Below, piece after piece: positions 7,577 to 23,781 of a stretch of DNA of 36,020 nt; the stretch's first letter is position 1; the number at the start of each line of letters is the position of its first letter. The notes below the pieces were generated by a model that was not told the origin of the DNA, searched no databases, and was given only the letters and a program-made list of their open reading frames with translations. The DNA comes from Pseudomonadota bacterium. Its GTDB lineage: Bacteria > Pseudomonadota > Alphaproteobacteria > Rhodospirillales > Magnetospirillaceae. The DNA lies in assembly GCA_021848545.1 (NCBI GenBank), contig JAJZUL010000032.1, positions 1 to 36,020 of the forward strand, in the 5' to 3' direction. Position numbers and translations under genes: made by a program.

Positions 7577-7594
7577 TCGCCCCCCCCGTCGGGG

Positions 7595-7701
7595 CCATCC
7601 AAAGTCGTCATGCGCGGGCTCGTCCCGCGTATCCACGCCGCTCCACCGGCGCCGTGCCGGACGGAAAGACGTGGATGGCCGGGACAAGCCCGGCCATGAC
7701 G
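7595..7701 (+). repeat. 107-bp intergenic repeat (family B), copy 1
   Basis: Contains two inverted elements: CATGCGCGGGCTCGTCCCGCG and, near the end, GGCCGGGACAAGCCCGGCC. GTCGTCATG and CATGACG lie at its ends. Copy 2 at 12116-12222 differs at two positions only. It resembles the dispersed palindromic repeats common in alphaproteobacterial intergenic DNA. The reading frames in it are artefacts. Confidence 0.85.
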
Positions 7702-7736
7702 GGGGTGTGTGGCCCGATCCATCCGCGCCGCCGTCG

Positions 7737-7768: not shown

Positions 7769-7860
7769 CGATTTCGCATTTTCGAAGTGTGGTATCATTG
7801 TCACACTCATTGATCTTTTGTCATCTTGCGGCCCATTCCCTTACTTTCGTCGTGCCTACT

Positions 7861-7874
7861 TTGATGTTCGTCAA
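7861..7874 (+). promoter_or_regulatory. FNR/FixK/Anr-type binding site upstream of the cytochrome operon
   Basis: TTGATGTTCGTCAA matches the TTGAT-N4-ATCAA consensus at nine of ten defined positions. Its centre is about 101 bp before the ATG at 7969. A class II site would put the start of transcription near 7909, with CCTAGT (7895-7900) as a weak -10. This suggests oxygen-responsive control of the two cytochromes. No regulator gene is in the window. Confidence 0.6.
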
Positions 7875-7968
7875 AGGCGGCCCCGGACGACCCTCCTAGT
7901 CTCGGCCTTGCGGCTTCGGCCGAAGAACCGCCGCGGCGCGCGCGGCCAGGAGGGAAGGAGAAAAAGCC

Positions 7969-9369
7969 ATGTCAGATCAATACGGACCACCCTTAGTCGA
8001 AGCGGCCGGCCGCCGCTCGTGGTCCATCAGCCTTAAGGTGGGCACTGCAGTCGCCGCCGTTGGCGCGCTGGTGACCCTGGCCGGCCCGGCCAAGGCGGTG
8101 CCGAGTTTCGCCCGCCAGACCGGCTTGGCCTGCGAAGCCTGCCACACCATTTTCCCGCAGCTGACCCCCTTCGGTCGCCGGTTCAAGCTGAACGGTTACA
8201 CCCTGACCACCGAACACGGCGTTTCGGATGTGGACAGCAAGGGTAACAGCATTCTGTCGCTGGCCAAGTTCCCGCCGATTTCGGCGATGATCCAGGTGAC
8301 CGACACCTGGTGGCAGAACACCGACAAGAATGGCGGCCAGGGCGGCCAGGGCAGCGTCCTGTTCCCGCGCCAGTTCAGCCTGTTCTATGCCGGCCGCATC
8401 ACCAATCGCATCGGCGCCTACAGCCAGTTGACCTATGAGGGCAACGCCGACCATCTCAGCATCGACAATACCGACATCCGCTATTCCGACCATACCGCCC
8501 ATGACACCTGGGTGTGGGGCGTGTCGCTGAACAACAATCCCGGCGTCCAGGATCTCTGGGAAAACAATGCCGGCGCTTGGGCGTTCCCCTTCATCAAACC
8601 CGGCAGCAAGGGCGGCAAGTACTGGAATGCCGGTACGCAGCCGGAGATCATGAGCCTGGGCCAGACCACCGCCGGCCTGACCGCCTATGGCTTCTATGAC
8701 AATTCGCTGTATTTCGAAGCGGGTGTCTATCGCTCCGCCGTTCCGGGGCACATGACCTACACCCTGGCCAACTCCAACGCCAACAGCGGCACCATTTCCG
8801 GTTACGCGCCTTACTGGCGTTTGGCCTATGAAAAGGATTGGGGCCACAATTCCGCGGAAGTCGGCACCACCGGCATGTATACGCGCATGACCTCGGGGGG
8901 CACGACCAACCTCGTCAACAACGCCATCAGCACCTATACCGATATGGGCTTCGATGCCCAGTACGAGCACATCAAGAACGACAATACGCTCGAGCTGACC
9001 GGTAATTACTGGCACGAATGGCAGGATAATGCCGCTGACGGGGCCGCCGGTTACTGGTCCGTCAACCAAGCCCAAGACGTCTCCAACGCGCATAACAATG
9101 CCGACTTCTTCGAAGGCGTCGGTACCTATTACTGGCAGCGTAAGATCGGCGGTTCGCTCGGTTACGTCTATCAGACCGGGTCGAAGGATCAGCTGGCGTA
9201 CGGCACCAAGTCGCCGACCACCGACTTCGAGACCTTGGAAGTGGATTACCTGCCCTGGCTGAACACCAAGTTCAGCGTGCAGTACAACATCTACAACGAA
9301 GTCAATGGTTCCACGAGCGGTGCGTCCGACTACAACAGTCTGATGCTCGGCATGTGGACGGCCTTCTAA
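7969..9369 (+). CDS. Fused monoheme c-type cytochrome / outer-membrane porin (Cyc2-like)
   Basis: The 466-residue product has a signal peptide ending near AKA (41-43). A short cytochrome segment follows at once: PSFARQTGLACEACH (45-59), with one CxxCH heme site at 55-59, then FPQLTPFGRRFKLNGYTL. The remaining ~380 residues are Gly/Asn/Tyr/Thr-rich alternating strands, such as RQFSLFYAGRITNRIGAYSQ and YWRLAYEKDWG. The chain ends in Phe (MLGMWTAF), as outer-membrane barrels do. This order and the ARQTG-CxxCH-FGRxFK-GY pattern match Cyc2, the cytochrome-porin that takes electrons from Fe(II) outside the cell. The family also has members of unproven function, so iron oxidation here is inference. 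AGGAGGGAAGGAG precedes ATG 7969. The di-heme cytochrome gene follows after 13 bp. Confidence 0.82.
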   Translation: MSDQYGPPLVEAAGRRSWSISLKVGTAVAAVGALVTLAGPAKAVPSFARQTGLACEACHTIFPQLTPFGRRFKLNGYTLTTEHGVSDVDSKGNSILSLAKFPPISAMIQVTDTWWQNTDKNGGQGGQGSVLFPRQFSLFYAGRITNRIGAYSQLTYEGNADHLSIDNTDIRYSDHTAHDTWVWGVSLNNNPGVQDLWENNAGAWAFPFIKPGSKGGKYWNAGTQPEIMSLGQTTAGLTAYGFYDNSLYFEAGVYRSAVPGHMTYTLANSNANSGTISGYAPYWRLAYEKDWGHNSAEVGTTGMYTRMTSGGTTNLVNNAISTYTDMGFDAQYEHIKNDNTLELTGNYWHEWQDNAADGAAGYWSVNQAQDVSNAHNNADFFEGVGTYYWQRKIGGSLGYVYQTGSKDQLAYGTKSPTTDFETLEVDYLPWLNTKFSVQYNIYNEVNGSTSGASDYNSLMLGMWTAF

Positions 9370-9382
9370 GGGGAGAGCAGCT

Positions 9383-9994
9383 GTGAAGACGATCTTCGCT
9401 ACCACAGGCTTCGCGCTGGCTCTCGCCACCGCAGGCATCGTCACCGCGGGCAACAGCGTCGCCGCCGTTCCCGCCGCCGTCAGCAGCACCTGCAGCACCT
9501 GTCACGGTGCCGATGGGATCAGCTCGGTTTCGACCTTCCCGAACCTCGCCGGCCAGGAGAAGAGCTACCTCGAAACCCAGCTGAAGGCGTTCCGCGACCA
9601 TTCGCGGGCCGACGCCCGCGCCCAGGCCTATATGTGGGGCATCGCCGGACCCTTGAGCGACAGCTCGATCTCGGCTCTGGCCACCTACTTCTCGGAGCAG
9701 GCTCCGGCGGCGGGCCAGCCGGTCGCCGACGCGGCCCTGGTCGCCCAGGGCAAGGCGATCTTCGACAACGGCGTTGCCAGCCAGGGCATCCCGGCCTGTC
9801 AGTCCTGCCATGGCGCCCAGGCCCAGGGCATGGCCACCTTCCCGCGTCTGGCCGGTCAGCACCGCACCTATCTGGTGCAGCAGCTGATGGCCTTCCATGA
9901 CGGGTCGCGGCAGAACGCGATCATGAATGCGAACGTCAAGAATATGACGGAGGCGCAGGCCCAAGCGGTCGCCGCCTACATTCATACCCAGTAA
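9383..9994 (+). CDS. Periplasmic di-heme cytochrome c4-type protein (Cyc1-like)
   Basis: The 203-residue product has a signal peptide (cleavage near SVAA, about 28) and two class I cytochrome domains with heme sites CSTCH (37-41) and CQSCH (139-143). Likely distal Met ligands are Met84 (AYMWGIAGPLS) and Met181 (AIMNANVKNMT). The repeated FPNLAGQ / FPRLAGQ after each heme is typical of cytochrome c4. Start GTG 9383 has GGGGAG 8 bp before it. It lies 13 bp after the cytochrome-porin gene and is followed by a strong terminator, so the pair forms one operon. The expected role is carrying electrons from the outer-membrane cytochrome to a terminal oxidase or the bc1 complex; this is inferred from the cyc2-cyc1 pairing known in iron oxidisers. 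Confidence 0.9.
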   Translation: MKTIFATTGFALALATAGIVTAGNSVAAVPAAVSSTCSTCHGADGISSVSTFPNLAGQEKSYLETQLKAFRDHSRADARAQAYMWGIAGPLSDSSISALATYFSEQAPAAGQPVADAALVAQGKAIFDNGVASQGIPACQSCHGAQAQGMATFPRLAGQHRTYLVQQLMAFHDGSRQNAIMNANVKNMTEAQAQAVAAYIHTQ

Positions 9995-10012
9995 TAGCCT
10001 GCCTTCACCTGA

Positions 10013-10046
10013 GACGTCCGCCCGACAGGGCGGGCGTCTTTTTTTT
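10013..10046 (+). terminator. Rho-independent terminator of the cytochrome operon
   Basis: GACGTCCGCCC (10013-10023) pairs with GGGCGGGCGTC (10028-10038; one T-G wobble) around a GACA loop and is followed by eight Ts (10039-10046). Textbook structure. Confidence 0.95.
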
Positions 10047-10147: not shown

Positions 10148-11002
10148 ATGAACAAGTTTTCGCTGGCGCTGGCGGTCTGCGCCGCCGCCCTGATGACCGG
10201 GTGCAGCACCGCCGTGGTTCCGGCCGGTCCGGCCCAGGCCGCGGCCCTGGCGCAAAACGCCCCGCTGCCGGCGGGCGCGGCCCGCGTCTACGTCCTGCCC
10301 ACCCATTCCTCCAGCCTGTACGGCCGTCTCAACGGCCGGGCCACCGTCGCCCTGTTCCAGTTGGGCTTTTCCCACGGCGTCACCGTGGGCAGCACCAACG
10401 CCCACACCTATGTCGTCTTCGACATCGGCGCCGGCAGCTACGACCTCCGGGCCGAGGCCGACCCCATTTCCAAGGTCACCAAAACCATGACCTTCGTCGC
10501 CGGCCAGACCTATTATCTGCGGCCGACCTTCTTCCGCTCGGGCGACAATCTCAAATGGGGCCAGCCGCTGAAGAACATGGCGCTGGAGCCGGTTCCCGCC
10601 GCCACGGCCCGCGCCGAGATCGCCAAGATGCGGATGTCGGCCATTCCGGCCGAGGGCAAAATCTTCCTGGCCCGCACCCTGGCGCCGCATCCGCAGGGCT
10701 ACGGCTATAACGGGACCATGCCCTATTCCTATATGCCGTCGCCGCCGGTCGCGCCCACGGCCGGCCCGGCGCCCGCGGCCCAGCCGACGCCCGCGGCGGC
10801 GGCCCCGGTTCCCGCCCCCGCTCCGCAACCGGCGCCGCAGGCCGTGGCGCCCCGGCCCGCCGCCCAGACGCCGGCTGCGGTGAAAACCGAATCCACGGTG
10901 CTTGAGGAAAAGCTCAGGGCGCTGAAGAGCATGGAGAAGCAGGGATTGATCACCCGGCAGGAGTTCGACGCCAAGCGAAAATCCCTGCTGGGCGCCTATT
11001 GA
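10148..11002 (+). CDS. DUF2846-like lipoprotein with C-terminal SHOCT-like helix pair
   Basis: The 284-residue product starts with a good lipoprotein signal (LMTGC, Cys19). The core (about 45-150) has the DUF2846 pattern: ARVYVLP, YVVFDIGAGSYDLRAEAD and FVAGQTYYLRPTFF. A Pro/Ala linker follows (about 198-245). The C-terminal segment LEEKLRALKSMEKQGLITRQ to KRKSLLGAY looks like a SHOCT domain. It probably sits on the inner face of the outer membrane or the outer face of the inner membrane; the function is unknown. GAGGAGGGGGGACC precedes ATG 10148. rluC begins 22 bp after its stop, so the two may be co-transcribed. Confidence 0.8.
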   Translation: MNKFSLALAVCAAALMTGCSTAVVPAGPAQAAALAQNAPLPAGAARVYVLPTHSSSLYGRLNGRATVALFQLGFSHGVTVGSTNAHTYVVFDIGAGSYDLRAEADPISKVTKTMTFVAGQTYYLRPTFFRSGDNLKWGQPLKNMALEPVPAATARAEIAKMRMSAIPAEGKIFLARTLAPHPQGYGYNGTMPYSYMPSPPVAPTAGPAPAAQPTPAAAAPVPAPAPQPAPQAVAPRPAAQTPAAVKTESTVLEEKLRALKSMEKQGLITRQEFDAKRKSLLGAY

Positions 11003-12054: not shown

Positions 12055-12115
12055 TCCAGCGGCCATCATTGAGGCTGCGGGCAAGCGCCCGGCCATCCGC
12101 GCCGCTCCGCCGTCG

Positions 12116-12222
12116 CCATCCAACGTCGTCATGCGCGGGCTCGTCCCGCGTATCCACGCCGCTCCACCGGCACCGTGCCGGACGGAAAGACGTGGATGGC
12201 CGGGACAAGCCCGGCCATGACG
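12116..12222 (+). repeat. 107-bp intergenic repeat (family B), copy 2
   Basis: Same orientation as and nearly identical to 7595-7701 (two differences over 107 bases), with a similar CATCCGCGCCGC lead-in. It lies between the convergent ends of rluC and the secreted protein gene. Nothing else is seen in 12055-12260. Confidence 0.85.
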
Positions 12223-12260
12223 GCGGAATCAACAGATTCCGAAACCCGAGGTCGGAACCC

Positions 12261-15858: not shown

Positions 15859-16002
15859 AGAGCCCGACCCGAAAATCGGCAGGGTGAGCCGAAAATGGCG
15901 GTTTTCGAGACCCGCAGCGGAGCGTACTTCATGTACGTGAGCAGCGGATGCGCAGAAAATCGCCATTTGCAGGCCGCCCTGGCGATTTTCGGGTCGGGCT
16001 CT
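15859..16002 (+). repeat. 144-bp nested palindromic repeat (family C), copy 1
   Basis: The outer arms are a perfect 20-bp inverted repeat (15859-15878 with 15983-16002; AGAGCCCGACCC at the left tip). Inside, AAATGGCG pairs with CGCCATTT, and CGTAC-N5-GTACG lies at the centre. The right tip overlaps the TAA stop (16004-16002) of the minus-strand gene. Copy 2 is at 17007-17150 in the same orientation. It could fold into one long hairpin and act as a terminator. Confidence 0.88.
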
Positions 16003-17008: not shown

Positions 17009-17150
17009 AAGCCTGACCTGAAAGTCGGCAGGGTGAGCCGAAAATGGCGGCTTTCGAGAACCGCAGCGGAGCGTACTTCATGTACGTGAGCAGCGGAAGC
17101 GCAGAAAACCGCCATTTGCAGGCCGCCATGACGAGTTTCGGGTCAGGCCC
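17007..17150 (+). repeat. 144-bp nested palindromic repeat (family C), copy 2
   Basis: Same orientation and length as 15859-16002, with roughly nine in ten bases matching; the core GCGTACTTCATGTACGTGAG is identical. The outer arms here are less perfect, while the inner AAATGGCGG / CCGCCATTT pairing is kept. It starts at the TAG of the preceding gene and ends 5 bp before the stop of the cheZ-like gene, so it fills the gap between two convergent genes. Confidence 0.87.
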
Positions 17151-17155
17151 TGAAC

Positions 17156-23480: not shown

Positions 23481-23535
23481 GGCGGCAACGAAACGAAGCC
23501 TGTCCGCATCGCGAGCGGGACGCCCGTTTGATACC

Positions 23536-23753
23536 TTTGGCCGCTCGCTCGATGCTCGCTTGTAGATTTCGCCCTCTGCCTAAGCGCGGCCGTCCGGCCG
23601 CTTGGCCGCTCGCTCAACGCTCGCTGGTAGATTCAGCCCTCGCCGGGCGGGCGCGTCCGCGCCCTTGGCCGCTCGCTCAACGCTCGCTGGTAGATTCAGC
23701 CCTCGCCGGGCGGGCGCGTCCGCGCCCTTGGCCGCTCGCTCAACGCTCGCTGG
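23536..23753 (+). repeat. Tandem array of a 63-bp repeat (family A), 3.4 units
   Basis: Units start at 23536 (divergent, 65 bp), 23601, 23664 and 23727 (partial). The 23601 and 23664 units are identical over 63 bases. Each has TTGGCCGCTCGCTC(A/G)A, a spacer, then a GC-rich inverted repeat around CGTCCG. It lies 28 bp past the sdhB stop. The same family occurs in reverse complement at 1450-1587 after lipB and clpA. Confidence 0.9.
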
Positions 23754-23781
23754 GGCACGATGCCCCTATCCGCCGCCCGCG

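Follow-up and report, generated by a model that had tools for sequence, protein, structure and literature searches.

The closest described relatives of the system considered here are the cytochrome-porins of the Cyc2 family and the c-type cytochrome genes that accompany them. Cyc2 proteins are recognised by an A-x-P-x-F-A-R-[QK]-[TY] motif ahead of their CxxCH heme-binding site and by P-x-L four residues past it (Keffer et al. 2021, PMC8406198). In the rus operon of Acidithiobacillus, cyc2 is followed by cyc1 (PMC10654088), while a stand-alone two-gene cluster, Cyc1B/Cyc2B, has been described in At. ferrooxidans (PMC7735108). Stand-alone cyc2 and cyc1 genes in Acidithiobacillus, as well as alphaproteobacterial relatives of Cyc2, are in print (PMC10654088), and in Acetobacteraceae Cyc2 is found beside a mono- or di-heme cytochrome (PMC10715153). 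The present analysis concerns a 36,020-nucleotide stretch of an alphaproteobacterial genome (contig JAJZUL010000032.1; hereafter the window), in which a cyc2-like gene is followed by a cyc1-like gene. On the basis of the protein sequences and of a structural model, these two genes probably specify a transenvelope electron conduit, composed of a heme-plugged 16-strand outer-membrane porin and a periplasmic di-heme shuttle.

The window shares with the rus operon the order cyc2 then cyc1, and its Cyc1-like protein is nearest, among solved structures, to the entry 1h1o; it differs in lacking cup, cox, rus and cta, a terminator following directly after cyc1 (PMC10654088). Downstream of this terminator, the window contains unrelated genes and no cup, coxBACD or rus. 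With Cyc1B/Cyc2B it has in common a stand-alone two-gene layout and the same two protein types, a likeness drawn from the published description and not from sequence (PMC7735108). As in Acetobacteraceae, an alphaproteobacterial Cyc2 is accompanied by a c-type cytochrome; the window however belongs to another lineage and, while acidophilic Acetobacteraceae are said to retain a cytochrome c oxidase, none was found here (PMC10715153).

The first gene (7969..9369, plus strand, stop codon included) encodes a 466-aa protein which ends in Phe and carries one CxxCH (C55-H59) near its N-terminus (AVPSFARQTGLACEACHTIFPQLTPFGRRFKLNGY). This N-terminus reads by eye as a signal peptide, with a hydrophobic stretch ending in PAKA, and the model places a helix at residues 20-36. 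The upstream Cyc2 motif is present as A43-V-P-S-F-A-R-Q-T51, followed by GLA and then C55, and past H59 stands P63-Q-L65. One CxxCH in 466 aa also accords with the Cyc2 criterion of a single CxxCH in a protein of at least 365 aa. While the published motif is placed five residues upstream of CxxCH (PMC8406198), the spacer between T51 and C55 counts three residues, as it does in presumed cluster 1 loci. An AlphaFold2 model, computed with an alignment of homologues as input, contains 16 strands of at least three residues (predicted local distance difference test, pLDDT, 80.4; predicted template modelling score, pTM, 0.80), and nearly all of the 50 matches listed by Foldseek are porins (OmpT, OmpC, OmpF and their kin; three are designed metalloproteins), with a best E-value of 7.4e-10 among those listed. 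The presumed heme plug is the segment A43-Y77 (AVPSFARQT-GLA-CEACH-TIF-PQL...FKLNGY; 8095..8199, plus strand), which is conserved in the alignments A1 and A3 described below; its exact place is not predicted, since residues 41-50 have a pLDDT below 50. Membership of the Cyc2 family is well supported by these motifs and the predicted fold: the upstream motif, the single CxxCH, P-x-L after the heme His and a predicted 16-strand porin are all common to the family as published (PMC8406198).

The second gene (9383..9994, plus strand, GTG start) encodes a 203-aa di-heme cytochrome c4 with two CxxCH. Its best match in the PDB is 1h1o, whose entry reads CYTOCHROME C-552 (178.4 bits, 49% identity), ahead of the next c4 proteins at 112.8, 104.5 and 101.2 bits. 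We take 1h1o to be Cyc1 of Acidithiobacillus ferrooxidans. This identification is consistent with the name cytochrome c552 given to Cyc1 of that organism (PMC7735108). When 1h1o was used as query against 396 sampled Pseudomonadota, three genomes passed a limit of E≤1e-35, namely this one together with G315 and G341; the limit misses some pairs, G008 having a pair and no match. In all three, the matching gene adjoins a cyc2 homologue, and this Cyc1 subtype therefore goes with cyc2. The second heme motif is CQSCH in the window as against CMECH in 1h1o, with Ser in place of Glu, and this Glu occurs in none of the nine family copies. The Glu is presumably tied to rusticyanin binding in 1h1o; the name Glu121 occurs in none of the papers listed in a literature search.

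Both genes lie on the plus strand, 13 bp apart, purine-rich stretches precede both starts, and an intrinsic terminator follows (10011..10046, plus strand), built of a stem of 13 pairs (10011-10040) and eight consecutive T (10039-10046). Its folding energy is -26.8 kcal/mol, compared with a shuffled mean of -12.5 (z -5.75). Spacing and terminator together make the pair a predicted single transcription unit. An earlier note on this DNA, whose span of 7861-10046 begins 108 bp before the first start codon, had described a 466-residue protein with a single CxxCH past a signal-like N-terminus and a C-terminal Phe, with a di-heme c4 gene 13 bp downstream; the open reading frames agree with it on each point. 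The Cyc2-like and Cyc1-like identities which it gave are borne out by the motif and the predicted fold, by the match to a solved structure and by the conserved pairing, and the 16-strand barrel that it suggested looking for by structure prediction is what the model contains, porins leading the Foldseek list. It had also called the terminator perfect; the terminator is strong, yet this word is slightly too strong, since two of the 13 pairs are G-U. Upstream of cyc2, no inverted repeat with exact arms of at least 7 bases, such as a shared operator might form, is common to the window and eight relatives, and a sigma-70 scan returned one minus-strand site, where shuffled sequence gives 0.6 on average. 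The cyc2 leader also contains a 9-pair stem-loop (AGTGTG...CACACT, 7786-7807), and the first copy of a 125-bp dispersed repeat (7581-7705 and 12102-12226, 94% identical) lies about 260 bp upstream of the gene.

Within its own genome (85 contigs totalling 3,169,679 bases, with a listed completeness of 99.75%), the cyc2-like protein has one match. A search with the whole protein located homologues in 16 places in 14 of 61 genomes, this one included. The CxxCH is kept in all 15 places where the N-terminus is present (it is missing from locus L014), and the di-heme gene comes directly after cyc2 in nine of the 16 (L001-L009, this genome and eight relatives); at L010, a partial c4 gene about 360 bp further on runs off the contig end. 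Alignment A1 covers 13 of the 16 places, L005 being left out for an in-frame stop, L013 by the motif filter and L014 for its missing N-terminus; L013 itself carries FAAQTG and CxxCH. Invariant columns in A1 include A43, P45, A48, Q50, T51, C55, C58, H59, P63 and L65, and R49 varies.

A scan of a named sequence collection recovered at least 587 relatives among 599 stretches that matched the patterns, and the best-scoring 80 of these were kept, three of which (L017, L020, L029) apparently repeat genomes counted elsewhere (G002, G034, G315). A Cyc1-like gene lies just downstream in 39 of these best 80 loci, five not being assessable. Over 74 homologues, alignment A3 retains 31 invariant columns, an invariance which is partly due to selection because the homologues were fetched with patterns from this same heme segment. 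A3 includes 73 open reading frames from 72 of the best 80 named loci; the eight omitted had no usable start (L083, L090, L094, L095) or no motif-bearing frame of 400 aa (L039, L078, L081, L092). With a family profile at E≤0.001, 64 of 397 sampled Pseudomonadota match; 41 of these genomes, whose matches mostly cover the N-terminal third, belong to two families, f64 and f83. At a guess, these are Zetaproteobacteria carrying Cyc2 of the cluster 1 type.

A quick tree, in which long branches were flagged and from which no cluster assignment is drawn, was built on 124 of 129 motif-bearing rows, five being dropped for sharing their first 200 residues with another row; repeat loci and the partial L014 were set aside. 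The window falls in a nine-row clade (Shimodaira-Hasegawa-like approximate likelihood ratio test, SH-aLRT, 100) with seven family relatives and L050, a locus from a metagenome-assembled genome (MAG). This alphaproteobacterial branch is a well-supported clade of its own, outside a 14-row group (13 rows from f64 and one from another family) presumed to be of the cluster 1 type. Of the nine pair-bearing copies in the family, L009 alone lies outside this clade. Among the named loci, one Gemmatimonadetes MAG (L059) has two cyc2-type genes in tandem, and a gene for a high-potential iron-sulfur protein lies near the cyc2-cyc1 pair in Caballeronia sp. SBC1 and two proteobacterial MAGs (L099, 4924-5235; L035, 10215-10517; L037, 5789-6097).

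Several observations weigh against reading the pair as a Cyc2-Cyc1 conduit. The 466-aa protein has no match in Pfam or NCBIfam up to E 10, so that its Cyc2 membership rests on motif, fold and relatives. The Foldseek query TM-scores are just 0.40-0.48 among the 50 matches listed. One of the nine pairs (L005, in G003) has a single in-frame TAG in cyc2, which may reflect a decaying gene or a sequencing error. A Cyc1-like neighbour is missing in 36 of the best 80 named loci; by title, 24 of these are Bacteroidetes, Gemmatimonadetes or Acidobacteria, several of which have a mono-heme gene there instead, and eight are Proteobacteria. Searched by sequence against the PDB, the 466-aa protein gave matches at chance level only (best E 0.65 and 0.23 in single and profile searches).

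The redox genes elsewhere in the genome bear on the electron route. COX1 has two matches at E≤1e-5. The first is CyoB (TIGR02843, 1122.5 against a cut-off of 1020.35), adjoined by CyoA, and corresponds to a bo3 quinol oxidase; the second has a NorB cytochrome c-like domain (PF22085, 122.5 against 29) and probably represents a quinol nitric oxide reductase. For COX2, the only match falls on the CyoA gene. By COX1 and COX2, no cytochrome c oxidase was therefore found in the 85-contig draft; further candidate oxidants of cytochrome c, for example nitrite reductase and peroxidase, were not searched for. A photosynthetic electron sink was rejected, as Photo_RC had no match in nine genomes. The rusticyanin model TIGR03095 had no match in this genome at E≤0.01, a search with no strong positive control because none of 14 control genomes passed the cut-off; over 15 genomes, it gave three weak matches below the cut-off (G008, G315, G417) and none here. 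The earlier note had called the pair a stand-alone module with no rusticyanin or oxidase beside it, which is right for the window; the rusticyanin model matched nothing in the whole genome.

Five pair-bearing relatives (G002, G007, G013, G016, G034) have COX2 matches of 172 to 182 bits, and all eight have COX1 matches, 2 to 9 each, of which only those of G002 were classified, as CtaD (its COX2 being CoxB). In G002, the cyc1 gene is followed after 0.98 kb, on the same strand, by an aa3 oxidase operon, with ctaC (196.7 against 147.7), ctaD (733.1 against 670.75) and then ctaG- and ctaE-like genes, named by eye.

A second bc1 cluster is a plausible candidate for the partner of the pair. This genome has two cytochrome c1 genes, one standard (280.4 bits) and one divergent (47.9 bits), whereas the eight relatives have one each. 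The divergent copy stands at the end of a minus-strand cluster on contig C7, in the order Rieske protein (TIGR01416, 176.6 against a cut-off of 97.4), di-heme c4, cytochrome b and cytochrome c1; the embedded c4 resembles ordinary c4 proteins (127.3 bits) more than it does 1h1o (72.3). On the other strand beside it lie a short-chain dehydrogenase/reductase (SDR) gene, which in NCBIfam comes closest to the YciK family (188.3 bits, short of the cut-off of 269), and then a [NiFe] hydrogenase. The pet operons of Acidithiobacillus contain c4 (cycA), SDR (sdrA) and petABC (PMC2754497, PMC10654088); gene content is alike, although order and strand differ, and the two are likened by description, not by sequence. 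In a plasmid collection, the divergent cytochrome c1 matched five records (Alteromonas, Legionella, Aeromonas and two Neisseria) at 31.5-37.7% identity, none of the five being an alphaproteobacterial plasmid. The genome further encodes SoxB (845.1 against 550), a SoxA-type gene and form I type RuBisCO (PRK04208, 811.3 bits against 438), the RuBisCO-family matches being four in number, three strong (421 to 468 bits) and one weak (70.9). In six named loci from Ignavibacteriales, Bacteroidetes and Acidobacteria MAGs (L060, L068, L086, L087, L089, L096), a bc-type cytochrome b lies within about 1.5 kb of cyc2 and shares 29-33% identity with its counterpart in the pet-like cluster described here, which hints at joint action of Cyc2 and a bc complex in other organisms.

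In the mechanism which we propose, the 466-aa protein would be exported, gain one heme c and fold as a 16-strand outer-membrane porin whose periplasmic mouth is plugged by the N-terminal heme segment. Single electrons would cross between extracellular iron and the periplasm via this one heme, and the di-heme c4 cytochrome would act as a soluble periplasmic shuttle. Export, heme attachment, location and iron as substrate are here inferred. Periplasmic electrons would then be exchanged with quinone via the second bc1 cluster and its c4 and not be given to a cytochrome c oxidase, an option to which we lean because no such oxidase was found.

The direction of flow can be read in several ways. The first, which we hold tentatively and at somewhat less than an even chance, is outward: quinol reduced by H2, sulfur or organics would feed the second bc1 complex and its c4, then Cyc1, then Cyc2 and finally extracellular Fe(III). 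It is favoured by the fact that the COX1 and COX2 relatives in the genome amount to a bo3 quinol oxidase and a NorB-type protein, and by the divergent bc1 cluster with its embedded c4 beside the SDR and [NiFe] hydrogenase genes, together with SoxB and the SoxA-type gene. A published model of H2-driven Fe(III) reduction in At. ferrooxidans uses bc1, c4, Cyc1 and Cyc2 (PMC7735108; review PMC8790237), and the stand-alone Cyc1B/Cyc2B was raised during Fe(III) reduction, being less abundant than Cyc1A/Cyc2A (PMC7735108). Moreover, the iron reducer Acidiphilium cryptum JF-5 (PMC8790237) has a 31% identical homologue on its plasmid pACRY03, followed at a distance of about 500 bp by a c-type cytochrome gene; this homologue reads FAAQT, the Arg of the motif missing, as seen in the same neighbourhood of L098. 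On the other side, an oxidase operon could sit in a gap of the 85-contig draft, the eight other pair-bearing relatives hold their several COX1 matches, CtaD in the case of G002, and Fe(II) oxidation is the activity reported for those Cyc2 proteins that have been studied biochemically (PMC8406198). As a separate observation, the neighbourhood of a cyc2-like gene on a plasmid of At. ferrooxidans YQ-N3 has the gene layout of A. cryptum pACRY03 (L097/L098), which could reflect transfer or a mixed assembly; this plasmid match (CP084173.1) was not used as AfCyc2.

Inward flow, which we consider possible and hold with less confidence, would run from Fe(II) to Cyc2, Cyc1 and either bc1 operating in reverse, to supply reductant for fixing CO2, or an oxidase that the draft fails to show. 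It fits the published roles of Cyc2/Cyc1 and petI (PMC2754497, PMC10654088), the Fe(II) oxidation of the biochemically tested Cyc2 proteins (PMC8406198), the form I type RuBisCO and autotrophy genes, and the aa3 oxidase operon near the pair in G002. It has against it that neither a cytochrome c oxidase nor rusticyanin was detected. The earlier note had proposed uptake of electrons from Fe(II) or another outside donor: this is only partly supported, and the route from Fe(II) to O2 is unsupported here because no cytochrome c oxidase was found in the draft. Without an oxidase, inward flow could feed quinone uphill; respiration from Fe(II) to oxygen appears no more likely than such uphill transfer or than an outward current to Fe(III). 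The suggestion of the same note that donor and downstream partner could be new goes too far, given the published precedents and the pet-like bc1 cluster of this genome.

That the pair exchanges electrons with a partner other than iron, for instance Mn(II), humics or another cell, seems quite unlikely. The family is very wide, its at least 587 relatives including, among the best 80, Bacteroidetes, Gemmatimonadetes and Acidobacteria; function is described as uncertain in much of it, cluster 3 above all (PMC8406198), and a Mn(II)-oxidation study involving Cyc2 exists (PMC9040806); nevertheless, no positive evidence points to another substrate here. That the protein is an ordinary porin without redox role, its CxxCH being due to chance or serving structure, is highly improbable: most of the chain is indeed a plain 16-strand barrel, yet the CxxCH is kept wherever the N-terminus is present and a Cyc1-like gene follows in about half of the best 80 named loci.

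Returning to the electron conduit, a third component may belong to it. Past the terminator, on the same strand as the pair, lies a gene (10148..11002, plus strand) for a lipoprotein which is weakly DUF2846-like with a SHOCT-like C-terminus. In Pfam, DUF2846 and SHOCT were matched at low scores, the window copy staying below the gathering score, and over five copies just one SHOCT match reached the cut-off. Five further genomes of the family (G002, G007, G008, G013, G019) have a homologue next to cyc2, lying divergently upstream within about 0.6 kb, whereas in the window the gene is downstream of the pair. The lipoprotein is thus close to the pair in six of the nine pair-bearing family genomes, this one included; none was found in the stretches examined around cyc2 of G016 and G034, and for G003 its absence is not judgeable because the contig ends just upstream of cyc2. 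No further match appeared in 193 loci (1.76 Mb), which are mostly cyc2 neighbourhoods, so that copies elsewhere in those genomes are possible. From its repeated placement, the lipoprotein may be a third part of the system.

Combining these elements, one may picture an autotroph without any cytochrome c oxidase in which Cyc2-Cyc1, aided by the lipoprotein, serves as terminal ferric reductase, with electrons from H2 or thiosulfate arriving through an acquired Acidithiobacillus-like pet cluster. We regard this full scenario as doubtful; if true, Cyc2 would be the main periplasmic electron exit.

Elsewhere in the window, a 63-nt unit is present in four tandem copies (23519-23772), which are 63-100% identical to the one taken as reference; inverted partners of the unit lie near 1447-1580. 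A 142-bp repeat occurs at 15861-16002 and 17010-17151 (92% identical), its first copy being itself largely an inverted repeat with 48-nt arms.

As Cyc2 beside a c-type cytochrome has already been published for alphaproteobacteria, the pair itself is not new in kind. What may be new is its setting, namely a Cyc2-Cyc1 pair together with a pet-like cluster in a genome without a detected cytochrome c oxidase, and the linked lipoprotein. In a narrow search of open-licence literature, only PMC10654088 turned up for Cyc2 and Telmatospirillum, and in a search joining Cyc2, 'iron reduction' and 'no cytochrome c oxidase', the third phrase was unmatched among the matches listed. Cyc2 serves as a marker gene for iron oxidation, yet the models for At. 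ferrooxidans run it both ways. With the pair, bc1, bo3, hydrogenase, Sox and RuBisCO all present and no cytochrome c oxidase detected, this genome would provide a clean natural case for testing the direction of flow, and a warning against taking cyc2 as proof of Fe(II) oxidation.

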